A stretch of DNA of 64,000 bases, from NCBI RefSeq assembly GCF_041080625.1, contig NZ_CP163518.1, forward strand, positions 1,302,001 to 1,366,000, written 5' to 3'. The translations under genes and the position numbers were made by a program. Source of the DNA: Streptomyces sp. CG1 (lineage in GTDB: Bacteria; Actinomycetota; Actinomycetes; Streptomycetales; Streptomycetaceae). The notes under the pieces are model-generated. The model had not been told where the DNA came from and did not search any database. It saw only the letters and a program-made list of their open reading frames with translations. Below are positions 15,210 through 31,827 of this stretch, one piece after another. How positions within the stretch are numbered: the stretch's first letter is position 1; every line of letters begins with the position of its first letter.

Positions 15210-15304
15210 GGTAGAGATCCGGAACAAGTCTATTGAGGCGTATTGCACGTACAGACTCCCATGGACGAGGTTGATGCCTCTTTGCCGGCCGCGGGATCTG
15301 AACG

Positions 15305-16324
15305 TCAACCGTCGAGCGACCGTGGACTGGGAGCGAACGCGAGGATGTACAGTCCCGCAGGCACCTCGGTGGTCCCCATGTGCACAAGACCGGCGGCAGT
15401 GGCCAGTTCCCGGTATCGGCTGAGAGTACGTTCCCGACCGCCCAGGAAGAGGAACATGCCGAGGTCCATCGAGGTCATCGCGTAGGGGTCGCCCTGGTCC
15501 AGCAGCCGCTCGACCACCAGTACGACGGTGTGCCGACCGGCCGCTTGGGCGCAGCCTCGCAGGATGCGCACTGCGTCGTCGTCGTTCCAGTTGTGCAGGA
15601 CGTTCACCAGTGTGTACACGTCGCCAGGTGGTAGTGGCTCGAAGAAGCTCCCGGCCAAGACCGTGAACCGGTCGCCGTGGCCGGCGGCTGTCAGCCGTTC
15701 GGTGGCCGCGTGGGCGGCGTCCGGCAGGTCGAGCAGGGTCGAGCGCAGGCGTGGGTACGTGCGCATCAGGGCGTCCAGCAGGACGCCGGTCCCGCCGCCG
15801 AGGTCCACCACGTGGCCGTCGGTGGGCCAGGGATATGCCTGGACCAACTCGCTGGCGAAGCTCTCCGCGTGGTGACCGCGGAGCCCGTCGAAGGTCACGC
15901 CGGTGGGGTGCGCGGCGAGATCCTCGTAGAACGTCTTGCCATGCAGCTCCGGGTAGGGCGGGTGGCCAGTGCGCAGCGCCTGGAGCAGACTTGTGGTCGC
16001 GGCATCGAGATGGGCGCCTATGCCGGACTGGTCGAGCCATGACCGCAGGCGCGAGGGGTGGCCGTCCAACAGGGCGGCGGAGAGGCCAGTCAGCCCGTAC
16101 ACGCCGGGCTGGGGTTCGTCGAAGACCTGGCGGCAGACGAGGAACTGCATGAGCCGCTCGAGGAGGTCTGGGTCGGCCGCAGCTCGTTCGGCGAGCGCCG
16201 AAAGATGGTCGTGGCCGGCGAGGATGTGGTCGGCCAGTCGCAGGGTCGCTGCGGCGCGCAACGCGACGGGGGCCAGTCCACTCACGGCTTCGGCGAACTG
16301 GTGGGCGGCGAGGTCGTCGTTCAC
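15305..16324 (-). CDS. SAM-dependent O-methyltransferase of the lasso cluster
   Basis: This 339-aa enzyme belongs to the plant-type/AcmB class of O-methyltransferases. It has an N-terminal dimerisation/winged-helix part (about 10-100), the SAM motif VVDLGGGTG at 172-180, and LHNWND at 243-248 with the His usually acting as base. Its start overlaps the stop of the ABC transporter (ATGA), so it is the last gene of the lasso operon. The precursor resembles lassomycin, a C-terminal methyl ester, so carboxyl O-methylation of the peptide is the natural guess. Side-chain or other modification cannot be excluded. The fold class differs from small carboxyl methyltransferases, so the assignment of substrate is inference. 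Confidence 0.8.
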   Translation of the reverse strand: MNDDLAAHQFAEAVSGLAPVALRAAATLRLADHILAGHDHLSALAERAAADPDLLERLMQFLVCRQVFDEPQPGVYGLTGLSAALLDGHPSRLRSWLDQSGIGAHLDAATTSLLQALRTGHPPYPELHGKTFYEDLAAHPTGVTFDGLRGHHAESFASELVQAYPWPTDGHVVDLGGGTGVLLDALMRTYPRLRSTLLDLPDAAHAATERLTAAGHGDRFTVLAGSFFEPLPPGDVYTLVNVLHNWNDDDAVRILRGCAQAAGRHTVVLVVERLLDQGDPYAMTSMDLGMFLFLGGRERTLSRYRELATAAGLVHMGTTEVPAGLYILAFAPSPRSLDG

Positions 16325-18150
16325 TGCGGGGCTCCGGGTGGGGTGGTGAGGGATGGCTCGCTGTCGACCCGCCCGTTGATGCGGCTGTCGGTCTGTTCGC
16401 CGAGCAGCAGGCGGTAGCGTCGGCTGGTGCGGACGAGCTCATCGTGGTCGCCGGCCGCCACCAGTCGGCCGTCGTCGACGACGAGGATCCGATCGGCGTC
16501 GCGGACGGTGGAGAGCCGGTGGGCCACCACCAGTACCGCGGTGTTTTCGGGCAGGGCGCGCAGCCCGGCCATCACGGCGATCTCGTTCTCGGTGTCGAGG
16601 CCGGAGGTGGGTTCGTCGAGCAGCAGCAGTGCGGGCCGGCTCAGTAGCGCGCGTGCGATGGCCAGACGCTGGCGCTCGCCGCCCGACAGCAGCGCGCCAT
16701 GCTCGCCGACGGGCGTGTCGATGCCCTGCGGCAGCCGGTCTACCAGTTGGTGCAGGTTCACCTGCCGCAGGGCCCTGTCCAGTGCCTCCGGCGTGACTTC
16801 GCCGCTCAGCGTGAGGTTGTCGCGCAGCGTTCCATGCAGTACGACCGGGTCCTGTTCCACCAGGGCCAGCAGCGAGCGAGACTGACGTAGCGTCAAATCT
16901 GCGTGGCCGACATAGTGGATCGACCCGTGGTCGGGTTCGTACAGTCGACAGATCAAAGACAGGATCGTGGACTTGCCCGCGCCGGATGGGCCGACCACCG
17001 CGGTCCGGGTGCCGGGCGCGAGTGCGAAGCTGATTCCGCGCAGAGCCGGTCGCTCGCCGTACGAGAAGGCAACGTCGCGAAATTCCAGCACGGGAGCACC
17101 AGCAGGGGCCCGATGCACCTTGGCCGCGGCGGCGGGCTCGGCCGGCTCGGCGTCCCAGGCGAGGCAGTCGTCGATACGCTGCAATGCGCCCATGGCCCGC
17201 TTCAGCGTGGTGAGGCCGTCCAGCAAATTACCGAGCGGCATCACCAGATAGGTGGCATACAGCAAGAGCGCGATCAGGTCGCCGAGCGCAAGGCTGCCAT
17301 CGGCCACCCTGGCGCCGCCGAGGACGAGAACCAGCAGGAAGGAGCCGCTGGCAGCGAGCTGGGTCACCGGCGCCGCCGCGGCACCGAGTCGGGCGCCGCG
17401 GATGCCAGCCCGGCGGGCGGCCTGGGCGGAGGCGACGATACCGGCGGACTCGGCCTCCTCGACGCCGCTCACCCGGATGGTGCGCACTGCCGTGAGCCCG
17501 CGCTCAAGGTCGGCGGCGAACGAACCGACAGCTGTCTGCGCCTGCTCACCTGCCGACCTGATCCGGTCGAGGGCGGCGGTGACGCCCAGCCCGGCGACCG
17601 CGAAGACCCCCAGGACGGCGAGGAAAAGCACTGGATCGATCCTGAGCATCAGGACAGTGGCGCCGCCTACCGTAAGCACGCCGACCGCGATCTCGACCAG
17701 GCTGCGGTTGACCGCGTCCCGCAGCGCGGCCGTGTCGTTGGTCGCCCGCGTGATCAGGTCGCCGATGCGGTGTCGTTCCAGGACTGTGATGCGCAGTCGC
17801 AGCAGGTGGCCGACCAGTTGTCGACGCAGCCGCAGGACGACGTTCTCCCCAGCGCGTTCCAGAAGGTAGCGGCCGAGCGTGTCAACGACCGTCTGAGCCG
17901 CGAAGAGCCCGAGCAGGACGGCCACCAGGCCGGCCAGAGCGCCGCCGGTGCGGACCCGGTCGATAACCGCGCCGGCCAGCAGCGGCTGCGCCAGTCCGAG
18001 CGCGGAGGCGGTGACGACGAGCAGGCCGGCCGTGCCGATCCCGCGGAACTCCGAGCGCATCAGCGCGAGGAGCCGGCGCAGGTCTGGCCGTGCGCCCACG
18101 CCGGTACCCTCGCCCGTACCGGAAGTAGTGGCCGAGCCGGTACTAGACAC
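16321..18150 (-). CDS. ABC exporter of the lasso peptide
   Basis: This 609-aa half transporter has about six membrane helices in residues 35-330 followed by one ATPase domain. Walker A is VVGPSGAGKST, the signature is LSGGERQRLAIARA and Walker B is LLLLDEPTSGLD. No N-terminal C39 peptidase is present, as expected because the lasso leader is removed by the separate B2 protease. The start overlaps the end of the B2 gene by 8 bp and the stop overlaps the methyltransferase start. It probably exports the mature peptide and gives self-protection. It is unrelated in detail to the second ABC protein at 21.7-23.5 kb. Confidence 0.88.
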   Translation of the reverse strand: MSSTGSATTSGTGEGTGVGARPDLRRLLALMRSEFRGIGTAGLLVVTASALGLAQPLLAGAVIDRVRTGGALAGLVAVLLGLFAAQTVVDTLGRYLLERAGENVVLRLRRQLVGHLLRLRITVLERHRIGDLITRATNDTAALRDAVNRSLVEIAVGVLTVGGATVLMLRIDPVLFLAVLGVFAVAGLGVTAALDRIRSAGEQAQTAVGSFAADLERGLTAVRTIRVSGVEEAESAGIVASAQAARRAGIRGARLGAAAAPVTQLAASGSFLLVLVLGGARVADGSLALGDLIALLLYATYLVMPLGNLLDGLTTLKRAMGALQRIDDCLAWDAEPAEPAAAAKVHRAPAGAPVLEFRDVAFSYGERPALRGISFALAPGTRTAVVGPSGAGKSTILSLICRLYEPDHGSIHYVGHADLTLRQSRSLLALVEQDPVVLHGTLRDNLTLSGEVTPEALDRALRQVNLHQLVDRLPQGIDTPVGEHGALLSGGERQRLAIARALLSRPALLLLDEPTSGLDTENEIAVMAGLRALPENTAVLVVAHRLSTVRDADRILVVDDGRLVAAGDHDELVRTSRRYRLLLGEQTDSRINGRVDSEPSLTTPPGAPQ

Positions 18151-18568
18151 GACCAGCCCTGACCCGCATCAACACCCGGTAGTCGTCGCGGCCACCAGGT
18201 TCGGCCACGATCCGCTCCTCGGCCTCCACCCAGGCGTGGGCGGCGAACGGCGGGGTGGCACGTACACCGACGCACCACTGCGGCCAGCCGCCGCGGACCC
18301 GGCAGAGCAGGCCGACCGCGATCGAGCGCGGTAGGCAGCCCTGCCAGCCCGCACAACGGGCACTGGCTCCGACGACCTCGCGGTAGTACTCCTCCGCCTG
18401 CCGGTAGGGGACGGGGCGTGCGTCGGCGGCGAGCCGTTCCAGTACCGTGCGCAGCCGCCGGGGCGACAGCCGGGAAAGGAGCAGTCCGCCGGCGACGGCC
18501 GCGCGGACGGTCACCGCGTGGCCAGGGCCGCTCCGACGGGCTGTGGGCACGGTCATGCCGACGCTCAT
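18143..18568 (-). CDS. Lasso peptide B2 leader protease
   Basis: This 141-aa transglutaminase-like protease carries the motif GWQGCLPRS with the catalytic Cys78 and PFAAHAWVE with His111, the two landmarks of lasso B2 proteins. A Glu/Asp at about 121-123 could complete the triad. It starts with ATG overlapping the stop of the RRE gene (ATGA) and ends inside the ABC gene start. Together with the RRE protein it removes the 21-residue leader of the precursor. Length is normal for stand-alone B2 proteins of actinomycetes, which lack the N-terminal part fused in McjB. Confidence 0.9.
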   Translation of the reverse strand: MSVGMTVPTARRSGPGHAVTVRAAVAGGLLLSRLSPRRLRTVLERLAADARPVPYRQAEEYYREVVGASARCAGWQGCLPRSIAVGLLCRVRGGWPQWCVGVRATPPFAAHAWVEAEERIVAEPGGRDDYRVLMRVRAGRV

Positions 18569-18822
18569 GCGCCCACCAGTCCGGCCTGGCGCAGTTGGTC
18601 GACCAGGGCCAGCAGGTCCTGTCTGGCGCGTTCCTCCGTGACGTCGTACTCGGCCGTGATCGCTGCCACGACATCTTCGGTGTCGCCCCCGGCGAGCAGG
18701 TGCTCGGCTGCCACCCGGCCTGTGGGGTTCAGCTGGAAGTAGCGGCCGACGCGCTCGTCGAGAAGGACGGCGCCGTACTCGGTGGCCACCAGGGTCACGT
18801 CGTCACGTAAGCGAAGGGGCAT
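18565..18822 (-). CDS. PqqD-like RRE protein (lasso B1)
   Basis: This is an 85-aa PqqD-family protein with the usual phrases TEYGAVLLDERVGRYFQLN and a C-terminal helix LLALVDQLRQAGLV. It is the recognition element that binds the YxxPxL motif of the leader and delivers the precursor to B2. The start lies 20 bp inside the cyclase gene and the stop overlaps the protease start, so the three enzymes are translationally coupled. Separate B1 and B2 proteins are the normal arrangement in actinomycete lasso clusters. Confidence 0.9.
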   Translation of the reverse strand: MPLRLRDDVTLVATEYGAVLLDERVGRYFQLNPTGRVAAEHLLAGGDTEDVVAAITAEYDVTEERARQDLLALVDQLRQAGLVGA

Positions 18823-20668
18823 CAGTGCGCTCCTGAAGGGTCGTTGTGCTGTCGACGGCCCGCAGCCAGAGTTCGCAGGCCACCGTGGTGAGCAGGGCGC
18901 CGTCGTCGAGCTGGGGTGCGTCGGGCTGACCGCACAGGGCGGTGAGCCGGTCCGCGTCGACCAGCCCGCGGGCGGCGAGGTGGGAGTCTTTCCAGAGGCC
19001 GACGAGGTCGGTGGCGTGCTCGCGGACTCCGAGGGCGAGGTCCAGGTCTCCGACGCCCTTGGTGGTACGGGTGAGCAGCTGCCTCGGGAGGACGTCGGCC
19101 ATGGCCCGCTGGAGCAGCGGCTTATAGACGTGCGGCTGGACCCGCTCCTCGATCCGTACCGAGAGTGCGGCCTCGATCACCCGGTCGTCCAGGAACGGGG
19201 CCGAGATCGGCAGGCCTGCGCGGCCAGTGAGGTCGGCGAGGGCGCGGACCAGCCGGGCGCCGTCGCGGATGCCGTCCAGTTCCAGGTGCCGGCCGGGAGT
19301 CGGGGCAAGGGGGTGCGCGGTGGCCGCGGCCCGGCCGATTTCACCGTGGACCAGGTTGACGGCGTACGGCGTGACCCAGTCCGGGAGCGTCGTCGGCACC
19401 CCCCAGGTGAGCAGAGGGGTGCGCCAGTCGGCGGCCGGTCCGCAGCTGACGGCACAACGGGCCAGCCACCGGCGGTAGGAGCGGCGCCGGGCCAGCTGAC
19501 GGGCGGTGTCCGGCCAGGACCAGCCGAACATGCCTCGGTAAGCGGCGATCCGGCGGACAGCGGCCCACGGGTGAGTGCGCAGCAGGTCGAGGGCGAGGGT
19601 GGGCAGCCCGACAAACAGGTGGTCTCCGCCGTGGCCGGTGAGGTGCACCTGTGAGCCGGCCCGGCGGGCGAGTTCGGTCACGGCGAGCACCCGCGAACGC
19701 TGCACGAGGGCGATGGAGGGTTCGTCAAGTCGCTCGGTCGCGGCGCCGACGAGGTCCGTGTAGGCGAGCGGGAGCCGCTCGGCGGGCAGGATCCGGTGGT
19801 CGAGGGCCGGATTCAACTGGATGGCGCGGGCAGCCCAGTCGCTGTCGTCATCGAGCGGGTCCCGGCTGTCGGCGGTGATGGCCAGTACGGCCGGGCCGCC
19901 CTGCCGGGTGCGCTCGCGCTGGGCGAGGTAACTGACCGTTGTCGAGTCGAAGCCGCCGGAGAGTTCCGTGCTGACCATCCCGCGACCCGTCATATGGAGG
20001 CGGACGGAGGATTCCATGGCCTCGTAGACCGGCCCAGCCCCGTCGGCTACCGGCCGGGTCGGGGACGGTAGCTCCCACCACCGCCGTACCGCGACGGCCT
20101 GCCGGGCGTCGATCCGCAGATAGCTGCCCGGTGGTGTCGGCGCGATGCCATGCCAGGCGGTTCGCTCGCCGAGCGGGTGCGGGACGGGTTCCAGCAGGCG
20201 CAGGGCGAGGGCGGCCTCGTCCACGGGCGCGCCGACCAGTTCGGCCAGCGTCTGTGCCCGGTCGCCAACCAGGAGGGTTTCGCCGTGCCGGGTTCGGTAG
20301 ATCTGGCGGAGGCCGGAGGCCGTGCCCTGGACCCTGATCGTGCCGCCGACGGTGGCCAGCGCATGGAAGACACCAGGGAGCCGCGCAAGGACGCGGTCCA
20401 GTTCGGCAATGTCCCGGCAGCGTCCCAGTGCTGTCCGCAGGGGATCGAGTTCGACCGGTCCTGGGCCGATGAGGACCAGCGCGTCGGCCCCGGAACGTAT
20501 GTCGGTGAGCCGGCTGTGCGGGAGATCGGCGAGGATCCAGGGGCGCCCGGACGGGTGGGGCACCAGATGGGTGGGTCGGAAGGGAAGGCACCCGGCAACA
20601 GCGGATGCCGCTTTGTGGTCCGGCAGCATGATGAAGCGGTCTATGCTGCCGCCGAGTGCCTTCGTCAC
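18803..20668 (-). CDS. Lasso cyclase (asparagine synthetase homologue)
   Basis: This 621-aa enzyme has an N-terminal glutaminase-like domain without the catalytic Cys at position 2 and a C-terminal ATP-pyrophosphatase domain with the P-loop ELSGGFDSTT (Ser237-Thr243). Lasso cyclases activate an Asp or Glu side chain with ATP and join it to the new N-terminus to thread the ring. Here the acceptor would be Asp8 of the 16-residue core. A GTG at 20668 opens the frame; an ATG 13 codons later (20629, MLPDHKAAS) is a possible start. The gene follows the precursor after 13 bp and overlaps the RRE gene by 20 bp. Confidence 0.9.
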   Translation of the reverse strand: MTKALGGSIDRFIMLPDHKAASAVAGCLPFRPTHLVPHPSGRPWILADLPHSRLTDIRSGADALVLIGPGPVELDPLRTALGRCRDIAELDRVLARLPGVFHALATVGGTIRVQGTASGLRQIYRTRHGETLLVGDRAQTLAELVGAPVDEAALALRLLEPVPHPLGERTAWHGIAPTPPGSYLRIDARQAVAVRRWWELPSPTRPVADGAGPVYEAMESSVRLHMTGRGMVSTELSGGFDSTTVSYLAQRERTRQGGPAVLAITADSRDPLDDDSDWAARAIQLNPALDHRILPAERLPLAYTDLVGAATERLDEPSIALVQRSRVLAVTELARRAGSQVHLTGHGGDHLFVGLPTLALDLLRTHPWAAVRRIAAYRGMFGWSWPDTARQLARRRSYRRWLARCAVSCGPAADWRTPLLTWGVPTTLPDWVTPYAVNLVHGEIGRAAATAHPLAPTPGRHLELDGIRDGARLVRALADLTGRAGLPISAPFLDDRVIEAALSVRIEERVQPHVYKPLLQRAMADVLPRQLLTRTTKGVGDLDLALGVREHATDLVGLWKDSHLAARGLVDADRLTALCGQPDAPQLDDGALLTTVACELWLRAVDSTTTLQERTDAPSLT

Positions 20669-20681: not shown

Positions 20682-20795
20682 TCACGGTATGAGTCGGCCG
20701 ACCAACTGGTCGGCCTTGATCCTGCCGAAACCGGCGGTGGCGGCGGCGAACGCGCCGCGTGCCGTGAGCTTCGGGGCCTGGTAGGGCTTCTTCAT
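20682..20795 (-). CDS. Lassomycin-type lasso precursor peptide
   Basis: This is a 37-aa precursor starting at ATG 20795 with AGGAGG seven to eight bases upstream. The leader contains YQAPKL, the YxxPxL motif read by the RRE protein, and has Thr20 at position -2, the residue needed for cleavage. The predicted core is GFGRIKADQLVGRLIP, with Gly1 and Asp8 for an eight-residue ring. As I recall lassomycin (GLRRLFADQLVGRRNI), nine of sixteen positions are identical, including the whole ADQLVGR block. The gene sits 13 bp before the cyclase. It is in frame with a LuxR-type HTH domain upstream without an intervening stop, discussed separately. Confidence 0.92.
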   Translation of the reverse strand: MKKPYQAPKLTARGAFAAATAGFGRIKADQLVGRLIP

Positions 20796-21131
20796 GGGAT
20801 TCACCTCCTCTTCTTGCTCGGGCCATTCGCGGTGGGAACCATCCTGCTGGGGCTTTCCTGGTTCGCCCACTGTCGTCTGCGACAATCTCTGGGTGTATGC
20901 CGCGGCTGCGAGGCAGACTTTCAAGCGGCTACTCAAACCGAGCTTCGCCTGAATGCTCACAATGTGCGCACGAACTGTTCGCTCGGTGACGAATATTTCC
21001 CCCGCGATGTCCATATTGGTCGGGCCTTCCGCCATCAGCGCGAAAACTTCTCGCTCGCGCGTGGTGAGTCGGCCCACGCGCCGCAGGGCGGTCACCCACT
21101 GCGGCGCACCCGCCGAATCCCGAGAACTCAT
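20682..21131 (-). CDS. LuxR-type HTH domain in continuous frame with the lasso precursor
   Basis: From ATG 21131, behind a GGGGGA ribosome binding site, the frame gives 149 aa. An in-frame ATG at 21149 is an alternative. Residues 21-78 form a GerE/LuxR DNA-binding domain (LTTREREVFALMAEG, NMDIAGEIFVTERTVRAHI, KLGLSSR). No receiver or autoinducer domain is present. After a linker of about 32 residues, which at DNA level is the ribosome binding region of the precursor, the frame passes without a stop into the lasso precursor (113-149). The HTH probably regulates one or both RiPP operons. It may be made only as a fusion, or ribosomes may also start internally at 20795. Confidence 0.8.
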   Translation of the reverse strand: MSSRDSAGAPQWVTALRRVGRLTTREREVFALMAEGPTNMDIAGEIFVTERTVRAHIVSIQAKLGLSSRLKVCLAAAAYTQRLSQTTVGEPGKPQQDGSHREWPEQEEEVNPMKKPYQAPKLTARGAFAAATAGFGRIKADQLVGRLIP

Positions 21132-21341
21132 CGATCCCCCTTTGCTCATCGGATTGAGCGGTACGTCGATCATGTCAGGGGGTATGCGGAATGATCGCTT
21201 CCAGGGTAATGTTTCCGTCAAGTTGCGTGCCGCTGATTTCTCGCCACACGGCCCCGTTCGCAGGCCGGTCGGGGTGATCGAGAGGTTTCAGATCGACCGA
21301 AAGTCGAATGTACAGGGAACCGGACTACGTCGCGGAAATGG

Positions 21342-21389: not shown

Positions 21390-21653
21390 TCAGGAACCGT
21401 CCTCGCCCGAGCGCGACCGGGCTACCCAGTACGCGCCCTGGCTGATCATCAGGATCCCGACCAGTTGCGGTACATGCCGCACGAACGAATCATTGCCGAG
21501 AGGTAACCAGCCCAGAGTCGCGGCAGCCACCAGCGCGACTCCGAAAACTGCGAGTGCCACTCCGCTCATCAGCCAGAAGCGTGGTGGGCGTTGGCCAGTG
21601 GATGGCTCCTTCGCGTCGGTACCGTCAGGCAGGTCAGGGTTTCGCGGAGTCAT
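21390..21653 (-). CDS. Small two-helix membrane protein
   Basis: This 87-aa protein has a Pro-rich charged N-terminus, a hydrophobic helix at about 27-49 (LMSGVALAVFGVALVAAATL) and a second at about 60-78 (HVPQLVGILMISQGAYWV). It starts at ATG with AGGA seven bases upstream, 39 bp after the LanT gene, and is followed at once by the strong hairpin, so it is the last gene of the lanthipeptide operon. Small membrane proteins at this place often give producer immunity. No family motif supports that here, so immunity is only a suggestion. Confidence 0.7.
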   Translation of the reverse strand: MTPRNPDLPDGTDAKEPSTGQRPPRFWLMSGVALAVFGVALVAAATLGWLPLGNDSFVRHVPQLVGILMISQGAYWVARSRSGEDGS

Positions 21654-23528: not shown

Positions 23529-26500
23529 CGGGCCCCCGCCCTGGCTGGTACGCCCGCTGGCCTGCCCCGGATCGCGTCCAGGGCGAGGCGCCACAGCCCG
23601 TAGCAGTACTCCTCCTTCTCCCGGTCCACGCCGAGCAGCCGGTTGCTCTGCATGTGCGCAAGGCTGACCAGCACGGCCTGCTCGACGGCTGCGCCCCGTT
23701 CCCCGGGGTGGTGCCGCCATACCGCGTCTCGCATCCGGGCCACCGCCGCCCGCTGCGCCGTGAACAGCGGCGCCAGCGCCTCGCGGTGGGCCGCGGCGAG
23801 CGAGTCCGGGTGCGCCGCCCAGGGCGCCAGCAGGTTGGTGAGGTAGCGCCGGTCGCGCCGGAAGTCGTCACGCATGGCTGTGGTCAGTTCCGGTAGCAGC
23901 GGCGCCCGCTCGGGCGGCCGGCCGTACCAGTCCTGGTACAGCGCGTGGTGGGCATGGACCATCAGGTGTTCCGCGGACGGCTGACCGTTCTCTGCCCTTG
24001 CCCGCAGCAACCCGGTGACCAGGTCGCTGTTGGCGGTGAAGAGACGTTCGGCGTCCGCGATCACCTCGATGCCGCCGTAGCGTTCGATCTCCCGTTCATA
24101 GGTGTCGAGTTGCACTTGGTCTGCCGCTCCTGCCCTGGCCAGCTGGTGGCCCCAGCGAATCGCCTCAAGGAGCAAGGCCTCCCGAGTCTCCTCTTCAGCT
24201 GCGTGGAAGCGCACCCGCAGATGGGCGTCGGGGTCGGCGTACCGGACGTAGAACCATCGGTCGATCAGTTCTCGCTTCCGCAGTTCCTCGACCAGGTCGG
24301 CCAGTCGGCCCGTGATCAAGTCGTCCTCGGACGCGTCGTCGCAGTAGACCTTCAGATAGGTCCACTCACCGCCGGGCGGGAACCGTCGCCGCGGACTGCG
24401 CAGGCCGACCCGCTCCGAGGACGACTGCACCAGCCGTCGGTGCGCGGCCTCTGGGGTGCGCGGTGTCCCCGGCGCGGTGCCGGCTCCCTCCCTCAGCATG
24501 ACGGGGATCACCAGCTCGCTGACATACTGCCTGTCTTCGGTGTCCCGCAGCCACAGACCGTCCGTCGCGGGCAGCATCTCGTGCAGTTCCAGGAAGGCGG
24601 GCGAGCCCTCCCGCAGCGCCGTCAGCGCCTCCCGGTGTAGTTGCTGCCGGCCGAGCGGGCTGTCCAGGTCCACCAGCAGCCGGTTGTCCAACTGGACGAC
24701 ATACACGTACCGGTCGATCCCCCATCGTTCGCGTAGTGCGGACAGGGTCGCGTCGAAACCGTCGCCGTCGTGGTCGTCCGCGTCGGCTGCCAGCTCTCCG
24801 GGCCGCAGATTCCACTGCGCCGGCCGGAGCACCACGTTGCCTCGACATACCCGCGGCAGGAACGGCAATGTGTCCAGGTCATGCCACTGGAAGCCGACCG
24901 GCAGTGCGAAACCGTCCTGAGAGGCTTCCAGCACGAACCGGGCCGCGTTCGGCGCGGTGGTGCCCACCAGCATGTGGTTCTGGTGCGCCACCACCTCTCT
25001 GCCGAGGCGAAGTGAACGCAGGTAGAACCGCTTCGGGGTGGCGCCGACGACGAGGTCCGAGAGAGGCATCTGCCGTTCAGGCTCCACCGTCGGCAGCGCG
25101 TTGACGAGGATCTCGTAATCCCGCGCGGCCCGGTGGGTTGCCACGTTGGCCCCTACAGCGAAGGTCGGCTGGTAGTTCACCTCCGCGTGGATCGCGTCGC
25201 CGCTCCGGTACTGTGCGTCGTCCAGGTACCGGCGCAGCTCGTCGACCGCCTCCTCGTCCAGGATGCCGCCGAAGCGGCCCATCGACCGGCCGCCGAAGGT
25301 CACGCCGTCGGCCGCCACCACCAGCCGCCAGTCCCCGGCGTCGAGCGTCGCCGCGGAGTCCGCCTGCACCTGGCAGAACAGGTCGACGGCGGCCAGCGGG
25401 GGCGCGTCCGAGGTGCTCGGATCCCAGACCGTCAGCCGCGCAACGTCCTCATCGGAGAGGGTGAGTGTGCGGCTGCCCGAGCGCAGGCAGTCTGCGAGCA
25501 GCCGGGCCAGGTGGCGCTGCTGGGCGTCGGGCCGGCCGGGGTACGGCGGGATGCGTGGGGCTCGTGGCGCGGCGGGCCGCGTGTACGTCGCGGGCGCGCC
25601 CAGCCCGGTACGGGCATCCAGCAGTTCCAGCACGGGCACCTCTGTGTGGGTGCCGTACCGCTCGACGAACCGTTCGTGGTACTCGGCGAGGTGCGGCTGC
25701 CGGATGGGATGGCAGCCCAGTCGCATCAGCGTCTCGACCGCGTCGGCGGCGGCCACCCCGATCGCTTGGTTCACCGACGGCTCGCGCACACCGAGCCGGG
25801 TGTCCACGTGGAACGGCACCGCCGCATCGCCCTCGTGGATGTCACGCTGCCGGTCCGCCGCCCGCCGCAGCAAGTCGGATCTGGTTCCGGGCACGGCCCG
25901 GTCGCTCCGGTCGAGCAGCTCCCGCAGGTCCGACCAGGCAGCGGCGCTCCCGGGCCCGGCGCGCTCGGCCAGCAGCCGATGCAGATGCTCCTCGGGCCGG
26001 AACTCGGTGCGCGGCGGCCGCAGATCGGTCAGCAAGTAGCGGGACTCGTGCAGCGCCAGCAGGAAGCTATGTGCGGCCTCCCGGTACTGCGGGCCGGTCT
26101 CGGCGGCCAATGTCTCGACGAGTTCGCCGAACAAGACGGGCTGTGCGCACAGCTGGCCGATGCGGCGCAGCATCGGGGTGGCGGCGATGGTTATCGCACG
26201 GCTGTCGCTCCTGCCGTAGACGTCCGCGTAGGAAAGCAAGAAGCGGTCACCCAAGTCGGCGATCAGCGGGTTCCAAAACAGCCGAGATCGGGCCAGCAGC
26301 TCCTGGTCGGACTCCAGGACGCTGAGGCGGTCCAGCAGCCACCGCATGTCCGAGCGAGTCTGAGTGGCCGCCTCGGCCGGCGCGAGGACCGTCGTGGTCG
26401 AGGCGGCCAGCGGCACCAGGGCCACACCCGCGAACCCGCCGAACGGCGTCGGTCGACTGCTCATCCGGCCGATGTAGCGCGCCAGGCTGGACAGCAGGCG

Positions 26501-26749
26501 CTCGGTCCGTCGCCCGCGGTCGGTCTCTCCCGCCGTGTACCGATCCAGCGCCCGTACCAGGTCCGGGCTTGCGATCTGCAAAGCCTCCCGCACCTCGGGG
26601 CGACCTGCGATGTCAAGAATCCGCTCCCGGCCGCCATTCAGCTCGGTGAAGGTCTCCACGCTCTGCATCGGCGCCCTCAGCAGGGCGAAGCCTGCTGGCT
26701 CGTACAGGCCGTGCGCCACCGTTCTCATCCTCCTTCGTTCCTCAGCCAT
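23525..26749 (-). CDS. Class I lanthipeptide dehydratase (LanB)
   Basis: The 1074-aa protein is a full-length LanB: an N-terminal glutamylation domain (about 1-730) and a C-terminal SpaB_C elimination domain. The latter starts near GGEWTYLKVYC and holds the conserved stretch IDRWFYVRYADPDAHLRVRF. LanB enzymes use glutamyl-tRNA to dehydrate Ser and Thr to Dha and Dhb. The gene starts 8 bp inside lanC and its stop overlaps the exporter start, so lanC-lanB-lanT form one coupled unit behind the precursor. No truncation or frameshift is seen. It is a complete rather than a split dehydratase. Confidence 0.93.
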   Translation of the reverse strand: MAEERRRMRTVAHGLYEPAGFALLRAPMQSVETFTELNGGRERILDIAGRPEVREALQIASPDLVRALDRYTAGETDRGRRTERLLSSLARYIGRMSSRPTPFGGFAGVALVPLAASTTTVLAPAEAATQTRSDMRWLLDRLSVLESDQELLARSRLFWNPLIADLGDRFLLSYADVYGRSDSRAITIAATPMLRRIGQLCAQPVLFGELVETLAAETGPQYREAAHSFLLALHESRYLLTDLRPPRTEFRPEEHLHRLLAERAGPGSAAAWSDLRELLDRSDRAVPGTRSDLLRRAADRQRDIHEGDAAVPFHVDTRLGVREPSVNQAIGVAAADAVETLMRLGCHPIRQPHLAEYHERFVERYGTHTEVPVLELLDARTGLGAPATYTRPAAPRAPRIPPYPGRPDAQQRHLARLLADCLRSGSRTLTLSDEDVARLTVWDPSTSDAPPLAAVDLFCQVQADSAATLDAGDWRLVVAADGVTFGGRSMGRFGGILDEEAVDELRRYLDDAQYRSGDAIHAEVNYQPTFAVGANVATHRAARDYEILVNALPTVEPERQMPLSDLVVGATPKRFYLRSLRLGREVVAHQNHMLVGTTAPNAARFVLEASQDGFALPVGFQWHDLDTLPFLPRVCRGNVVLRPAQWNLRPGELAADADDHDGDGFDATLSALRERWGIDRYVYVVQLDNRLLVDLDSPLGRQQLHREALTALREGSPAFLELHEMLPATDGLWLRDTEDRQYVSELVIPVMLREGAGTAPGTPRTPEAAHRRLVQSSSERVGLRSPRRRFPPGGEWTYLKVYCDDASEDDLITGRLADLVEELRKRELIDRWFYVRYADPDAHLRVRFHAAEEETREALLLEAIRWGHQLARAGAADQVQLDTYEREIERYGGIEVIADAERLFTANSDLVTGLLRARAENGQPSAEHLMVHAHHALYQDWYGRPPERAPLLPELTTAMRDDFRRDRRYLTNLLAPWAAHPDSLAAAHREALAPLFTAQRAAVARMRDAVWRHHPGERGAAVEQAVLVSLAHMQSNRLLGVDREKEEYCYGLWRLALDAIRGRPAGVPARAGAR

Positions 26750-28115
26750 GGAGCATCAGCCCGTTCCACCACGACTGCCGTCCGCCGCCTGCGGCCAGCA
26801 GGCTCAGGCCCACTCCGGCCGCGCCGGTCAGGAAGCTCGGATCGTCGACGAGGTTCCCCGTCGACTCCTCGTCCCGGACGACCAGCAGCTGCTCCGGGTC
26901 GCACTGCGACAGCAGTTGCTCGGTGAGCCACCGGACGTCATCCCTCGCAGTCGCGTCACCGGTCTGCTCCACGACGAAGGCGGCCACGCAGAGCAGACCC
27001 GCCACGCCGTGACAGATCGTCGGCGAGGACACCGACTCGGGCATCGCACGGACGCGGGCCATCGCCGCGCGATGGGCGGCGACCGCGGTCGACCGCAAGT
27101 CGGTGTCGGCCAACGCCGTGCCCGCTTGTAACAGTGCGACCGCGACTCCGGGCGTGCCGTAGCACCAGGCGGTCCGGGTCGGCACTGACCCGGCCGGGTC
27201 CGGCGCTCCGGACTCAGTCAGCGGTATTCCGGCGGGCCAGTCGGGCCCCAACCGGTCCGGCGTCGACCACTCAAGCAGTCGGTCTGCCAGCCGGAGCAGG
27301 GCGGCGCGGACCTCGGGCCTGTCGTGCCCAGCGCGATAGGCGGCGGCGAGGGCCGACAGCACACCGGGGATGCCGTGGGAGAGGCCGGTGTTGTAGTAGC
27401 CGAAGGGGTAGTGCTCGCGGTACTCGTCCAATGGGAACAGTTCCGGCGGCACCCGGCAGGCCAGATCCTTCTCGTCCGAGGTACCGACCACCTTCAGGAG
27501 ATAGCACACCAGGACGTCGACGGCGTCCCGGTGCTCGGAGAGCGTGGCCTCGGGGGCGGAGAGCAGTGCCACGAGCACACCGGCCGCGCCATAGATCACG
27601 TCGTAGTCGGTGGCCGCGTAGCCCTTTTCGCGGACCGGCCACGGGTGTTCCCGGACCTGATCGGCCACCTGCCGCCAGAGCTGGCGGGCACTCGGCGCGT
27701 AGCGGTCATCGACCTGCCGGAACTCCTCGACGGCCAGGGCCAGGCCGGAACTGCCCAGCAGCAGCGAGGCGGTGGGGAGCGGATGGGTGTGGGTGCTGCC
27801 GACCGCACTCTGGAGCTGGGCCTGTGCTCGGGCGAGCCATTCGTGGCGTGACTGGTCGGACGTCGCGGTGTCGGCCGAACGTTCCGCGCTGTCCGCGTGG
27901 CTCGCCAGGGCGAGTTGGAGCAGGGCCACGCCCGTGTGCCCCTTGCCCAGCGACGCGCCGCCCCACTCGAAGGGGTTCCTCGCCCGTGTGGCGGCCCGTT
28001 CCACCGCGTCGGCCACCAGCCGTTCCTGGGAGAGACGCTCCCCGATCAGGGTGGCATGGGCGTGCGCAGCGGCATACGGGTCGGGGGGATCTGCGGAAAT
28101 CCGATGGTTCGACAT
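26742..28115 (-). CDS. Lanthionine synthetase C (LanC)
   Basis: Starting at ATG 28115 this is a 457-aa cyclase. The zinc-binding motifs of the LanC family are present: WCYGTPG near residue 318 and ICHGVAG near 367, giving Cys, Cys and His ligands. Gly-rich repeats such as GYYNTGLSHGIPG and GAAGVGLSLLAAGGG mark the alpha-toroid fold. It adds Cys thiols to the dehydrated residues made by LanB. It is the first enzyme gene after the precursor, separated from it by a 13-bp stem hairpin that would let the precursor transcript outnumber the enzyme transcript. Confidence 0.93.
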   Translation of the reverse strand: MSNHRISADPPDPYAAAHAHATLIGERLSQERLVADAVERAATRARNPFEWGGASLGKGHTGVALLQLALASHADSAERSADTATSDQSRHEWLARAQAQLQSAVGSTHTHPLPTASLLLGSSGLALAVEEFRQVDDRYAPSARQLWRQVADQVREHPWPVREKGYAATDYDVIYGAAGVLVALLSAPEATLSEHRDAVDVLVCYLLKVVGTSDEKDLACRVPPELFPLDEYREHYPFGYYNTGLSHGIPGVLSALAAAYRAGHDRPEVRAALLRLADRLLEWSTPDRLGPDWPAGIPLTESGAPDPAGSVPTRTAWCYGTPGVAVALLQAGTALADTDLRSTAVAAHRAAMARVRAMPESVSSPTICHGVAGLLCVAAFVVEQTGDATARDDVRWLTEQLLSQCDPEQLLVVRDEESTGNLVDDPSFLTGAAGVGLSLLAAGGGRQSWWNGLMLHG

Positions 28116-28210: not shown

Positions 28211-28396
28211 TCAGCAGCCGACCGGGCACTGCGTGAGACAGCTGAGCACGGTGCAGGTGGCCTTGACCGACGGGCACTTGGTGGTGCAGCCGAGGCAGGT
28301 GGCCGTCGGGAACGGCTCTGCGGCGGTCTCGCCCTGCGAGGTCACCTTGACATCGAGCACGAAGGGGTCGGCGACGGCATTGGCAGTTGCAGACAT
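28211..28396 (-). CDS. Class I lanthipeptide precursor (LanA), seven Cys
   Basis: This 61-aa peptide starts with ATG behind GAGAGGA. The leader has PFVLDV at 11-16, which fits the F-x-L-D recognition box of class I leaders. The presumed core from about Thr31 holds Cys at 34, 37, 41, 48, 53, 57 and 61, and nine Ser/Thr (31, 33, 38, 39, 43, 47, 49, 52, 55), enough for up to seven thioether rings. Cys is the last residue. Just before the core lies EPFP (27-30), a good site for a prolyl peptidase. I do not recognise the core as a known lantibiotic. LanC, LanB and LanT follow in the same direction. Confidence 0.9.
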   Translation of the reverse strand: MSATANAVADPFVLDVKVTSQGETAAEPFPTATCLGCTTKCPSVKATCTVLSCLTQCPVGC

Positions 28397-28415: not shown

Positions 28416-28430
28416 AAAAAAAAGGGGGGG
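28416..28430 (-). repeat. Homopolymer pair (A8 G7) upstream of lanA
   Basis: Eight A are followed directly by seven G on the + strand, which in the lanA transcript reads as seven C then eight U, about 20 bases before the start codon. Such runs are rare in this GC-rich DNA. They could vary in length by slippage and alter the leader region. Confidence 0.6.
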
Positions 28431-28567
28431 ACGTTCGATGCTGCTGCCGGACACCCGAAAACTAAGTCGATGGACGTTTCCGAATCAACCGATCGACGTA
28501 CTGGGACGGAGAATTGAGAAACTCGCCATATGCCGCTTTCGACAATAGACCGGGGACTGGCGCCGTG

Positions 28568-29944
28568 TTAACGCGAAGCCGCACGGTCGGCCCAGCGAGC
28601 CAGCATCGCCCTTGCCTTGGCTGATTCAGGCGCGGACAGTGCGGCGAGTGACGTCGTGCCGTGGGTGGCACCGGGCGCGGTGAACTCGGCCGAGTCCCGG
28701 GTGCACGGACCCACGGTGAACCGCTCGGCGCCCCACGGGTCCTCCTGCCCGTAGACGAACATCAGTCGCTTGCCGTCGCGGTCGATCCAGTTCTGGACGT
28801 CGCGCATCGCGTCGCGGTCGAAGGGCTGGTTCCGCAGCTCGGGGGGCAGGAAGTTCCGGATCCGGTATACGTCCGGGTAGCGGCGCAGGTCCGCCAGCCA
28901 GGGGAACGCCGGTGATGGGCTGCCGAGTTGGGTGGCCGCCTGGTAGTAGTAGCCGACGTGCGCGGAGATCCGCTGGTCGGTGTAGCCGTCGAGGCCGTTG
29001 AGGCTGAAGTTCAGCCAGCCCCATAGGGTATCGACGGTGGCGTTCGGCACCGGCACCAGGCCGCATTCCCGGTCGCCCCATAGCATCCAGAACGAGAACA
29101 CCGACTCCATGGCCAGGTACTCCACCGCCCGGTCGGTCGTCCTGAACGTCCGGGAAAAGGTGTCCCCCTGGGCGCGCGCCCAGGCATCCAGCCGGGCCGC
29201 CAATTCGGCACGGTGCTGGAGCAACTGGCGACTCACCCGCTCCACACCGGCCCGGCAGGCTGGCTCCCCGACCGTGGCGAGGAACCGGTCGTAGGCACTG
29301 TCGTCGGAATCGTCCACGTCGTTCGGAGCGACGTAGGCGACGGTGCCCGCCACGTCATGCGGGTAGAAGCGGCGGTGGTAAACGGACGCCATGCCGCCCT
29401 TGCTCCATCCGGTGCTGATCCAGCTGCCCCGGTACACCCGCTTCAGCGCCGACACTACCGCGTGGTAGTCGTCCGCCGACTGCCTGATGGTGAGCGTGCT
29501 CCAGTCCTGGGGGCTCGGCGTCGAGGACCCGAAGAAGCGGTGCTCGATCTTGAGTTCGTTGCCGTCCAGCAGCTTGGTCGGCTCGCTCAGTGCCTGGCTC
29601 TTGTCGAGTTCGTAGCCGGTGGAGTAGAGGACGGTCGGTGCGGCCAGCGAGCGATGGATGAGGTTTAGCCGCTGCTGGAACATCCCCTTCCTATGGTCGC
29701 GGTGGTCGACCCACTGCCGGAACTCCATCAGATACTGCCGACGGCCGCCGCCGTCCGTCTCATGTTGCTCCCGTACGGTCAGGCCGGGCACCTTCGCGAG
29801 CAGGGGCGCGATGTCGGACTGCATCCGGTGAGCCACAGCCGCGTCGGTGGCCGGGGCCGGCACGGCGCCGACGAGTTGCACCGCGGCCAGTAATAAGCCG
29901 ATCACCGTGGAGATCAGCTGGGTTCTGGTTCTGGTTCGCGCCAA
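28568..29944 (-). CDS. Secreted S37-family prolyl tri/tetrapeptidyl aminopeptidase
   Basis: This 458-aa protein has a Sec signal peptide (twin-Arg-free, hydrophobic 11-27, likely cut after AVPAPA). The nucleophile motif GWSKGGM near residue 180, and the pairs YVYGQEDPWG and GATHG near the C-terminus for the Asp and His, match the Streptomyces PS-10/S37 family. Such enzymes release peptides ending in Pro from free N-termini, as known for maturation of transglutaminase in S. mobaraensis. It is in the same direction as and 171 bp upstream of lanA, whose leader ends in EPFP. A role in trimming the lanthipeptide outside the cell is a reasonable inference; a general degradative role is the alternative. 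Confidence 0.8.
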   Translation of the reverse strand: MARTRTRTQLISTVIGLLLAAVQLVGAVPAPATDAAVAHRMQSDIAPLLAKVPGLTVREQHETDGGGRRQYLMEFRQWVDHRDHRKGMFQQRLNLIHRSLAAPTVLYSTGYELDKSQALSEPTKLLDGNELKIEHRFFGSSTPSPQDWSTLTIRQSADDYHAVVSALKRVYRGSWISTGWSKGGMASVYHRRFYPHDVAGTVAYVAPNDVDDSDDSAYDRFLATVGEPACRAGVERVSRQLLQHRAELAARLDAWARAQGDTFSRTFRTTDRAVEYLAMESVFSFWMLWGDRECGLVPVPNATVDTLWGWLNFSLNGLDGYTDQRISAHVGYYYQAATQLGSPSPAFPWLADLRRYPDVYRIRNFLPPELRNQPFDRDAMRDVQNWIDRDGKRLMFVYGQEDPWGAERFTVGPCTRDSAEFTAPGATHGTTSLAALSAPESAKARAMLARWADRAASR

Positions 29945-30040
29945 AGTCTTCCTCCTGTTGGAATTGACACCGGCGGGAATGAGGTTCCAGCTCTGTGAAA
30001 TGGGCTGCAGCCGGTGCGTTCTGGCTCCGACGTCACCTTA

Positions 30041-30059
30041 GAGGCTGTCTCACGTGGTG
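30041..30059 (+). repeat. Left terminal inverted repeat of the IS element
   Basis: GAGGCTGTCTCACGTGGTG, exact inverse of 31407-31425, preceded by TTA. Confidence 0.92.
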
Positions 30060-30065
30060 CTGCAG

Positions 30066-30500
30066 CTACTCGACCGTGCTCGTGAGAAACGTGTGGAACT
30101 CAGCGGCGAGGTTTCGCATCTCCTCGCCGGCCGCGTGCACGGTGGTGGCCTCGAAGTGCCACTCCTCGGACGGAGGCCGGTCATGGATGCCCCACGTCAG
30201 GTGGACGTAGCCGCCTGGGCGGTGTTCTGCCGAGACCGTCAGGTCGCGTTCCAGGGAGCGCCAGGCGCGCGCTCCTTCCCAGCCGCGGAAGTCCTCGGCC
30301 AGCGAGGCGAGGAAGGTGTCGAGGCCATCGCCGTCCCAGGTCCGCACCAGGGTCTCGACGCTCACCCATTGCCCGCGAGCTTTCACGAGGAAGTCGAGCA
30401 TGGGGTCGTCCCCGAATGGTCTTGCCGGCTTGGAGAAGAGCAGGTGGACCGGTCTTGGCCCGGGTTCTCCCACGCGTACCGCGGGATTATCTTCGATCAT
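30066..30500 (-). CDS. DUF6228-like passenger gene inside the IS element
   Basis: This 144-aa acidic protein has the pattern LVRTWDGDGLDTFLASLAEDFRGWEGARAW followed by SLERDLTV and a terminal helix GEEMRNLAAEFHTFL. I recall this as the DUF6228 family common in Streptomyces; its function is unknown. Its stop codon is seven bases inside the left inverted repeat, and it reads away from the transposase from a start at 30500, 98 bp from the transposase start. Because both terminal repeats and the target duplication enclose it, it travels with the element. The likely alternative, capture of a neighbouring host gene by use of a distant end, would have the same outcome. Confidence 0.7.
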   Translation of the reverse strand: MIEDNPAVRVGEPGPRPVHLLFSKPARPFGDDPMLDFLVKARGQWVSVETLVRTWDGDGLDTFLASLAEDFRGWEGARAWRSLERDLTVSAEHRPGGYVHLTWGIHDRPPSEEWHFEATTVHAAGEEMRNLAAEFHTFLTSTVE

Positions 30501-30598
30501 TTGAGCAGGTTAGAAGTCATGAGCCTCGATGACCAACTGCCATCCTCACAGTGCCCGGGCACGGGCCGCAGGCGCCGCTTGGAGCGTGATCGTCCACT

Positions 30599-31416
30599 AT
30601 GGCTGTGGATCTTGCGCGGGAACTGGTACCCGATGGGCTGTGGAAGATCGCCGCGCCGCTGATACCGCCGTTCCGGCCCAGGCAGCAGGGTGGCGGGACG
30701 GCGCCGGTGGCGGACCGGAAGGTGTTCACGGCGGTGGTGTACGTGCTGACCAGCGGTTGCGCCTGGCGCTACCTGCCGCCGACGTTCGGCACCTCGCCTG
30801 CCACTGCGCACCGCAGGTTCACGACGTGGACCAAGGCCGGACTGTGGCGCCGGCTACACCGGGCCGTCCTGGACGAACTCGGTGCCAAGGGCGAGCTGGA
30901 CTGGACCTCAGCGATCACCGACGCCGCGTCCGTCCGTGCGAAAAGGGGGGCGCGCTGACCGGACCGAACCCGGTCGATCGCGGCAAGAAGGGCAGCAAAC
31001 TGCATGTGCTGTCCGAAGCCCAGGGCATCCCGCTTGCCGTCGCGGTCTCCGGCGCGAACGTGCACGACAGCCAGGCGTTCAAGCCGCTGCTCCTGGGCCT
31101 TCCCGCCATTCGCTCTCGGCGCGGGCCACGACGACGGCGACCGGTCAAGGTCCGCGCTGACAAGGCGTACTTCTCCGCCGAACACCTCGCCTGGCTCCGC
31201 GCACGAGGGCTCATCCCGCGTATCGCGCGCCCGGGTGTCGAGTCCAGCGAGCGGCTCGGCCGACACCGCTGGAAGATCGAGAGATCGATCGCCTGGCTGT
31301 TCGGCTACCGCCGTCTCACCGTCCGCTATGAACGCAAGGGCAGCCACTTCCTCGCCTTCCTGGGCCTCGCCGCAGCTCTCACCTGCTACAAGAAACTCGC
31401 GAAACTCACCACGTGA
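30599..31416 (+). CDS. IS5-family transposase, two frames joined by -1 frameshift
   Basis: The first frame (30599-30958) codes 119 aa with VLTSGCAWRYLPPTFG and the first catalytic Asp (ITDAAS). It stops just after the run A4G6 at 30941-30950. A -1 shift there joins it to GGALTGPNPVDRGKKGSK, and the second frame runs to TGA 31414-31416 with the second Asp (KVRADKAYFS) and the Glu (RWKIERSIAW). The DDE set is complete and no other lesion is seen, so the element may be active if the shift occurs. The stop lies inside the right terminal repeat. Confidence 0.85.
30941..30950 (+). promoter_or_regulatory. Transposase frameshift tract (AAAAGGGGGG)
   Basis: Four A and six G lie three codons before the stop of the first transposase frame. 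A one-base backward shift here enters the second frame. Homopolymer slippage is the usual mechanism in this IS group. Confidence 0.7.
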
Positions 31417-31425
31417 GACAGCCTC
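31407..31425 (-). repeat. Right terminal inverted repeat of the IS element
   Basis: CACCACGTGAGACAGCCTC, exact inverse of the left end. It contains the transposase stop codon and is followed by the TTA duplication. Confidence 0.92.
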
Positions 31426-31428
31426 TTA

Positions 31429-31827
31429 GACGGGAACCGACGAGTGGGAGGGGAGTGGAGAATTCTGCGACCGAAATACTGCCCCGTGGAGACCGGGTGG
31501 CGATGAGTTCGGCTGCGCAACCAACGACGATCTCGGGGGGCAGGTTCCGGTGCGCCGGAAGAGGGCGCCTTGCCCGATGTACGGCTGGTTCGCGGCCCAC
31601 CCAGGGTGTCGGTACACGTGGAGTCGACCTTCGCAGGTCGCCCGAACGCCTCGCTCTTCTCTCTGTTCGACGAGGAAAGACCTGGCCGCCCTCACCCATG
31701 ACATCCGGGAGGAAGAGCTTCCGCAGCACAGCGTCTCCGTCCGTCGAGGCGCATCTCGTCAGTCCTCGTGTGCTGTCTTGACCCCCGTACGATCACCAGT
31801 GGGGCGGGGCCGCCGGGAGTGATTGCG
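31429..31827 (+). other. About 400 bp without a convincing gene
   Basis: This lies between the IS element and the lysis cassette. Short open frames occur on both strands but none has a ribosome binding site together with plausible protein sequence. It may hold the lysis promoter, or remains of the junction where the RiPP genes entered the tail locus. Confidence 0.5.

Follow-up and report, generated by a model that had tools for sequence, protein, structure and literature searches.

How do a lasso peptide pathway and a class I lanthipeptide pathway come to lie between the tail and the lysis genes of a phage-like locus? The question is raised by a stretch of 64,000 nucleotides, hereafter the window (G000:C1:1302001-1366000), from the 11.1 Mb genome of Streptomyces sp. 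CG1 (G000), for which negative positions denote DNA upstream of the window. Protein families were called with Pfam, PHROGs and NCBIfam, and structures were compared via the Protein Data Bank (PDB). As stated in the preliminary description of this DNA, the tail module ends at position 15209 and the lysis genes start from 31828, both on the + strand, and the interval holds the two pathways for ribosomally synthesized and post-translationally modified peptides (RiPPs) on the - strand, together with an IS5-type insertion sequence (IS) element. On comparison of this locus with its relatives, we consider it probable that the sequence from 15218 to 31766 was inserted as cargo into a conserved, spread-out Streptomyces virion gene set, at the tip-holin junction, where docking would have occurred repeatedly.

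An empty counterpart of this site is present in the closest relative, G388, which aligns with the window at 95% identity over positions 1776-15217 and regains similarity at 31767. The entire cargo block (15218..31766, no strand assigned) is replaced by 32 bases in this genome, where 42 bp separate the tail gene from the holin-like gene. Since the same tail and holin-like genes adjoin in G388, the arrangement in the window is more than a chance juxtaposition, and the earlier proposal that the flanks form one locus into which the RiPP block was inserted is borne out. A DNA search for the block in the G388 genome recovered only IS copies (66-86% identity) and diverged pieces (64-86%) of at most about 710 bases, and the relatives of the lasso cyclase gene lasC in G388 are 37-40% identical and located elsewhere. 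Within the gene for the GH6 family tail-tip enzyme, identity to G388 drops from 92-98% to 79-89% from about position 14275; in the lysis genes it is 72-89%, a pattern suggestive of recombination close to the cargo. CG1 and G388 align collinearly on either side beyond the locus (-100.0 to -94.8 kb and +68.2 to +91.6 kb), which places the virion locus at the same chromosomal position in this pair, the only one so compared.

A broader survey drew on matches to the fibre protein (50/392 Streptomyces genomes, CG1 included) and to the holin-like protein (38/392, CG1 included), for each of which a subset of loci was fetched, together with six IMG/VR loci. The resulting 44 rows include 33 with a measurable tip-holin gap, of which 31 remain once two likely duplicates with identical gaps (L083, equal to G388, and L085, equal to G097) are dropped. 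The Actinopolymorpha pittospori locus L011, which has only the GH6 domain in common, was omitted, the S. muensis locus L008 is the same as G220, and odd gap values (-782, -2111 and some between the tail tube and tape measure genes) are artefacts of repeated or partial matches. The tip-holin gap spans 25 to 16,559 bp, the window having the largest: it is at most 300 bp in nine loci and above 300 bp in 22, reaching 4 kb or more in five. Control gaps in the same rows, between the tape measure and distal tail (Dit) genes and between Dit and the next gene, measure -3 to 23 bp, the remaining tail gaps are below 130 bp, bar G262, G069 and repeated-match artefacts, and the holin and amidase genes are separated by 49-63 bp in all but three loci. 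According to the preliminary description, tail and lysis genes that never adjoin in relatives would refute a single locus; adjacency is seen in the 9/31 loci with gaps of up to 300 bp, G388 among them. Five of the seven loci from named genomes (Streptomyces sp. S.PB5, S. regalis, S. alanosinicus, S. flaveus and Streptomyces sp. MBT65) similarly show the tail genes, a small gap of differing content and then an amidase homologue, with no holin homologue in S. flaveus. On account of the empty site in G388 and the variable gap across 31 loci, the flanks can be regarded as one locus and the tip-holin junction as a cargo site, with the constant flanks, variable content and empty sites of a cargo hotspot.

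The cargo at this junction differs among loci. Pfam matches identify a Tox-REase-2 with WXG100 in G253, a NucA/NucB nuclease in the IMG/VR locus L088, RHS/HINT and LamG proteins in G218, SUKH in G276, a nitroreductase piece and an MFS pump in G259, and AAA_21 in both G011 and G226, the latter also with defence-effector-like matches. Defence-like AAA/HNH genes are found among the cargo, some cargo genes are uncharacterized, and the gap in G315 may hold tail or lysis genes instead of cargo. Of the coding length in the filled gaps, 33.6 kb is on the - strand, with the window itself contributing 15.0 kb, and 25.0 kb is on the + strand, such that - orientation is not a rule.

Head genes were located upstream of the window with the proteins of a compact phage-like contig (G069) and of phage ZL12. 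All on the + strand, they comprise a terminase (-63954..-62395; Pfam Terminase_6N/6C), a portal-like gene (about -44528..-42744), a capsid gene (-40376..-39327; Pfam Phage_cap_E) and, by similarity, connectors (-3152..-1166). The virion genes of CG1 from the terminase to the lysis genes lie on one strand and in phage order across 97 kb, or 134 kb with inclusion of two conserved genes at +68 and +69 kb, and make up the full virion gene set of a prophage, with the portal assigned by similarity and position. Unlike in the compact G069 contig and ZL12, this set is not contiguous in CG1 and its relatives. Clustered regularly interspaced short palindromic repeat (CRISPR)-Cas genes and repeat arrays lie between the terminase and portal-like gene (window -57690 to -44600; L211), with cas3, cse1, CT1975/cas7, cas5, cas2 and cas1 identified by Pfam, a set which we take to be type I-E, and a 24-base repeat word present in 25 exact copies, mostly 61 bp apart. 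Homologues (32-42%) of these CRISPR-Cas genes are also located upstream of the portal-like gene of G218. The capsid-connector stretch of CG1 measures 36 kb and harbors a class II tRNA synthetase gene (L002:3146-4537) with homologues in the G388, G097, G284, G280 and G218 loci. The same stretch, upstream of the connectors, also encodes Imm49 and an RNase A-like toxin protein (L003:183-4969), as well as a ricin-lectin/LHH nuclease protein with a SUKH protein next to it (L003:10913-16077). In G097, the terminase-portal gap (L223:1299-7484) encodes DndA (best PDB match DndA; E 1.3e-195) and a DndE-like protein (E 2.6e-5), and further genes there read like dndB-D by their sequence, the DndC-like protein having no PDB match. 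The 28.6 kb portal-capsid gap of G388 includes QueC and QueD homologues (L214:3109-5809), and this cargo reads like a 7-deazaguanine (preQ0-type) DNA-modification set, its DpdA-like candidate having no PDB match.

The same dispersal is evident among the 12 loci, CG1 included, for which upstream DNA was read and which were chosen for long contigs. A capsid gene is present in 11/12, on the same strand and 12.5-60.1 kb upstream of the connectors, compared with 2.1 kb in G069 and 2.2 kb in ZL12. Terminase-portal gaps measure 1.1-17.9 kb (eight loci), portal-capsid gaps 1.4-28.6 kb (ten loci), and the distance from the terminase to the last matched lysis gene is 38-108 kb in the eight loci with both ends read. 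The junction between the connectors and the tail tube gene varies as well (0.03-5.9 kb in 12 loci; window -1166 to 1906). Of 152 CG1 genes tested, 43 recur in at least two of the 11 other loci: most virion genes are found in 6-11 of these, the fibre and GH6 genes in two, and the two located at +68.1 and +69.1 kb in nine and eight, respectively. The virion frames are near full-length, and terminase and capsid matches remain so down to 48-67% identity. The ratio of nonsynonymous to synonymous substitution (Ka/Ks) is low for ten virion genes, at 0.05-0.31 against each of G388, G097 and G036. The integrase of ZL12, the only one used as a probe, has no match in 11 loci.

Several points weigh against a general docking site in a conserved virion locus. 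The survey loci were picked by similarity to the window, and the upstream subset for long contigs, and are thus not a random sample. No holin homologue is found in 11 of the 44 rows (G069, L009, G220, G007, G085, G035, G312, G190, G379, G224 and G025), for which no gap could be measured; L009, G025 and G379 have an amidase homologue nearby, and the DNA read of S. muensis (L008/G220), G007 and G069 lacks an amidase homologue too. It is therefore not a general rule that these particular tail and lysis genes adjoin; S. muensis retains the fibre and GH6 genes but shows neither lysis homologue in the sequence read. Interruptions also occur at some other tail junctions, with 932 bp between two tail genes in G262 and, in G069, 4,640 bp at GH6, and the holin-amidase interval extends to 548-1,753 bp in three loci (G024, G279 and G228) that have only a diverged amidase match. 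Some of the cargo has no weapon or defence appearance, such as Lsr2 in S. alanosinicus, a glyoxalase in G366 and kinase-like genes (L005 among them). RiPP cargo occurs in 1/31 loci, which does not establish that RiPPs are specifically associated with this junction, and neither insertion machinery nor target duplication was found at the junctions. Concerning the head genes, the portal label derives from position and similarity alone, with no Pfam match, no head gene is present in the approximately 63 kb read upstream of the G090 connectors, and a terminase and a portal-like gene were seen in only 8/12 and 10/12 loci, respectively, partly since the fetched DNA ended. Some of the Ka/Ks values are rough, since synonymous differences reach up to 0.67 per site for the genes concerned.

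If the block does represent docked cargo, it would have arrived by insertion between modules, and homologous recombination within the tip and lysis genes on either side may reshuffle cargo between strains. Both RiPP pathways would be driven by their own opposite-strand promoters, with a LuxR-type regulator, apart from particle production, and each would make one peptide for competition and export it through its own ABC proteins. The virion genes would be kept by host selection, with either the cargo or the particle being useful, the latter as a domesticated phage that is perhaps similar to a gene transfer agent (GTA). As to particle function, a GTA-like role is our leading guess. We more tentatively suggest that the pulled-apart virion set may be a widespread Streptomyces element and serve as a scaffold docking defence systems and weapons at its module junctions, possibly including the CRISPR-Cas, Dnd and preQ0-type DNA modification systems, polymorphic toxins and RiPPs, and that GTA-like particles may spread or exchange this cargo between strains via recombination in the virion genes. 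Were the docking-site interpretation right, Streptomyces chromosomes would retain a conserved, spread-out virion locus that gathers offence and defence genes at set junctions. Such a locus would offer a new place for mining antibiotics and defence systems and a concrete GTA candidate in the genus that produces most antibiotics, and would allow the movement of antibiotic pathways between strains to be tested directly.

The alternative that survives best is itself a sharper form of the docking-site interpretation, according to which the locus is a GTA-like domesticated phage whose dispersed genes make particles packaging host DNA, while cargo accumulates in what has become a permanent locus. GTAs are systems in which selected virion genes are kept on the chromosome. 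The present locus resembles them in its chromosomal virion genes under selection and in the absence, so far and with the ZL12 probe only, of an integrase. Its full virion set, including terminase and capsid, the purifying selection indicated by the Ka/Ks ratios, the dispersal over 97 kb (134 kb with the +68 and +69 kb genes) and its conserved chromosomal place in G388 are all consistent with this view. It differs from GTAs in the large weapon and defence cargo between its modules. The integrase result comes from a single probe and the shared position from the comparison with G388, and no Streptomyces GTA turned up in a full-text literature search. We consider a GTA-like system a serious possibility, though short of an even prospect.

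A working temperate phage or phage-plasmid relative that bears many morons and still excises and infects is considerably less likely. The near full-length structural frames and the similarity of the tail to those of the compact G069 contig and phage ZL12 would be in keeping with such an element; ZL12 (GQ919031) has a homologous tail module in the same order, with 61% identity in the tail-associated protein (Tal), and a peptidoglycan-binding-domain-like gene about 1.4 kb past the fibre gene. However, ZL12 is compact, with its connectors 2.2 kb past the capsid, has an annotated integrase and no RiPP annotation, and lacks a holin-like homologue in the 29 kb read. In each of the 11 loci where the distance could be measured, 12.5-60 kb lie between the capsid and the connectors, and a search of 11 loci gave no ZL12-like integrase. 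Similarly improbable, and already disfavoured, is a decaying prophage in which insertions struck dead DNA at random and neither gene order nor site reflects function. Insertions at many junctions and the presence of IS and transposase pieces could be so explained, and cryptic prophages are highly prevalent in actinobacteria according to PMC10023795. This is countered by the Ka/Ks range against three genomes, by the near full-length terminase and capsid matches at 48-67% identity and by the rarity of insertions between neighbouring tail genes.

The lasso pathway occupies the tail-proximal part of the block, with all its genes on the - strand. The precursor gene lasA (20682..20795) has the predicted core GFGRIKADQLVGRLIP of 16 amino acids, with Asp at position 8 as ring acceptor and a calculated mass of 1721.01 Da after loss of water (14.016 Da more if methylated), and is accompanied by an Asn-synthetase-like cyclase (lasC, 18803..20668; PF00733, E 3.2e-40, above cut-off), a PqqD-like RiPP recognition element (RRE) protein B1 (lasB1, 18565..18822; NF033530, 99.5 bits, cut-off 70), a leader peptidase B2 (lasB2, 18143..18568; NF033537, 103.9 bits, cut-off 33) and an ABC exporter (lasD, 16321..18150; PF00664/PF00005). 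The B1/RRE and B2 proteins, the cyclase and a precursor with leader and Asp/Glu acceptor together define a lasso cluster. The narrower cyclase model NF033561 scores 250.8 on lasC, below its cut-off of 300, and the leader model NF033521 gives 19.3 bits for lasA alone, against a cut-off of 19, and 16.1 within the long open reading frame (ORF). An O-methyltransferase (15305..16324; PF00891, E 1.5e-34), with a 60% homologue beside lasso genes in G677, is a putative tailoring enzyme of the lasso peptide. A LuxR-type helix-turn-helix (HTH) ORF (20682..21221, -; PF00196, E 8.3e-15) reads in frame into lasA, and G677 as well as the 13 listed homologues share this single stop-free frame, with a linker that varies in sequence and length. 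Among these 13, one is without the HTH start and one is named as a keywimysin-related RiPP. A Shine-Dalgarno-like stretch precedes the internal lasA ATG in both the window and G677, suggesting that lasA is also made alone.

The second pathway, likewise on the - strand, is that of a class I lanthipeptide, as defined by a dehydratase with N- and C-terminal domains together with a cyclase. The dehydratase LanB is encoded by an open frame (23525..26749; PF04738, E 3.1e-153; PF14028, E 2.9e-54) whose coding start is unrefined. The cyclase LanC (26742..28115; PF05147, E 1.2e-42) probably starts near 28115, its open frame extending to 28454 across lanA. The precursor LanA (28211..28396), with an FVLD box and a Cys/Thr-rich core, fits an FxLD leader followed by a Cys/Ser/Thr core, with a score of 17.9 bits to NF038155, under the cut-off of 20. 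An ABC exporter (21693..23720; PF00005) completes the set. A small membrane-like protein with no family match is encoded at 21390..21653 (-). Further cargo genes comprise an S37 peptidase (28568..29944, -; PF05576, E 4.3e-104), which is a possible leader protease, and a DUF6228 protein (30066..30500, -; PF19739, E 2.2e-40). The IS5-type transposase (30529..31416, +) consists of two overlapping frames (DUF4096 at 30599-30958 and DDE_Tnp_1 at 30529-31416), a combination of domains that defines the IS5 family; other copies in CG1 are diverged or partial only, and no convincing pair of ends was found in a search for terminal inverted repeats and target duplication.

Relatives of the two pathways were sought by scoring approximately 8,000 candidates in each of the lasC and LanB searches, without genome context. 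The best lasC matches among those scored are from Streptomyces sp. NPDC002506 (96%), an ENA contig (80%) and Kitasatospora sp. NPDC093806 (78%), and the best LanB matches from Streptomyces sp. NPDC048111 (81%) and Kitasatospora sp. NPDC051170 (78%). The nearest relatives among these belong to different strains, a possible sign that the two pathways move separately. In genus samples, which include CG1, lasC matched 130/392 genomes at E 1e-60 and LanB 3/199 at E 1e-150, with best identities outside CG1 of 49% and 42%, respectively; a family sample for lasC (2/375 at E 1e-140, CG1 included) adds a 59% relative. In G062 (L082; G062:C89), lasso and class I lanthipeptide clusters adjoin on one strand in an order that differs from that in the window, with a LuxR HTH gene between them, a lanthipeptide exporter 54% identical to that of CG1 and no tail gene recognised within the 20 kb read. 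The pairing of a lasso with a class I lanthipeptide pathway therefore recurs at least once. No LanB relative was found in IMG/VR, where two stretches matched and neither is a relative, the RiPP proteins show only matches under 60% in a plasmid collection, and no RiPP genes are present in ten other virion loci, apart from generic ABC and IS matches.

These distributions bear on the proposal of joint movement and induction in the preliminary description. F-type (flexible) tailocins combine a siphovirus-type tail with holin-like and amidase genes in loci without head genes. The present locus has the tail and holin-like/amidase genes in common with them and retains a terminase and a capsid, and a headless tailocin is thus rejected. 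That a tailocin-like bactericidal tail and the two RiPPs are moved and induced jointly as a weapon cassette is very unlikely: although the RiPP genes are flanked by tail and lysis genes, with RHS, toxin-like and immunity genes nearby, the terminase, portal-like and capsid genes persist upstream on the same strand, G388 has the virion locus at the same place without the RiPP block, the nearest lasC and LanB relatives are in different strains, the tail and lysis genes are on the strand opposite to the RiPP genes, and LexA-like boxes are not in excess. Transfer of the whole cassette as one unit is rejected in view of the G388 positional orthologue, and SOS co-control through LexA-like boxes, scored with a general consensus, is rejected as near matches are close to expectation (five in the window against 3.35 expected; one in L003 against 1.02). 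Joint mobility and joint induction consequently find no support.

In comparison with described systems, the cargo-insertion reading finds its nearest parallel in prophages that carry biosynthetic gene clusters (BGCs), which Dragos et al. are said to have reported in 2021. The likeness lies in peptide-antibiotic pathways within phage-derived DNA; the window differs in holding a lasso and a lanthipeptide pathway jointly, at a defined junction and with an empty-site relative. A survey of actinobacterial prophages found small putative BGCs in 0.6% (13/2112), with several class I lanthipeptides in Streptomyces, and neither lasso nor tailocin occurs in its main text (PMC10023795). The dispersed virion set with CRISPR-Cas within it is a further difference, the 13 cases of that survey not having been compared individually. 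In Bacilli, PMC13381572 describes co-localised clusters for a lasso peptide and a second RiPP, a linear phosphorylated peptide; these are likewise two adjoining RiPP pathways, one of them lasso, but come from Bacillota, whereas the partner in the window is a class I lanthipeptide in Streptomyces. Class II lanthipeptide clusters are, according to PMC12715929, located near defence genes more often than expected. By title and abstract start, the open-licence papers listed yielded no such arrangement among Streptomyces tailocins or BGC-bearing prophages and tailocins, and nothing on lasso-LuxR-methyltransferase or fused precursors or on lasso-lanthipeptide hybrids in this arrangement.

The tail module upstream of the cargo is on the + strand and begins with a tail tube protein (1906..2487; PF25595, E 3.9e-47), a gene of the unknown-function family phrog_19248 that is present in 11/11 other loci compared (2643..3230) and a 1667 amino acid tape measure protein (3623..8626; PF10145, E 3.6e-44). 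These are followed by the Dit-like distal tail protein (8623..9510; phrog_5577, phrog_33), a minor tail protein (9527..10459; phrog_25212), a tail-associated, hub-like minor tail protein (10456..11547; phrog_1885, phrog_177), which is the one with 61% identity to ZL12, and a tail fibre/tip protein (11571..13856; phrog_38009; 97% in G388). The terminal CBM4_9 and GH6 tip enzyme (13878..15209; PF01341, E 2.8e-56; PF02018) aligns in its GH6 domain with solved GH6 cellulases and keeps the NRD and DTSRNG motifs of structure 6fao, which we take to denote a catalytic role; beta-glucan at hyphal surfaces may, we presume, be its target. The related compact phage-type head and tail set of G069 lies on a 152 kb contig (G069:C2; L048-L049), where the GH6 gene is split: about 4.2 kb, including what reads as a transposase-like gene, separates its two pieces. 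A gene at 133-936, between the connectors and the tail tube gene, has weak Big-domain matches below cut-off, and Rfam and tRNA scans returned nothing informative.

On the far side of the cargo, a conserved stretch precedes the holin-like gene (31828..32187, +), which belongs to an unknown-function family (phrog_38457) and is present in 11/11 other loci compared, some of which were fetched by means of this gene. Its start at 31828 is likely, judging by translation and sequence, and a C-terminal transmembrane-like stretch and its position point to a putative holin-like role. It is followed by an endolysin-like amidase with a peptidoglycan-binding domain (32247..33131, +; PF01510 (Amidase_2), E 1e-23; PF01471). 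Further downstream, SUKH-type genes are located at 35347-36326, and a 3414 amino acid RHS-repeat/LamG protein is encoded at 39046-49290 on the - strand, to which the LamG and RHS/HINT proteins in the tip-holin gap of G218 are about 26% alike. A second transposase with DDE_Tnp_1_assoc and DDE_Tnp_1 domains is found at 60684-61613 on the - strand.

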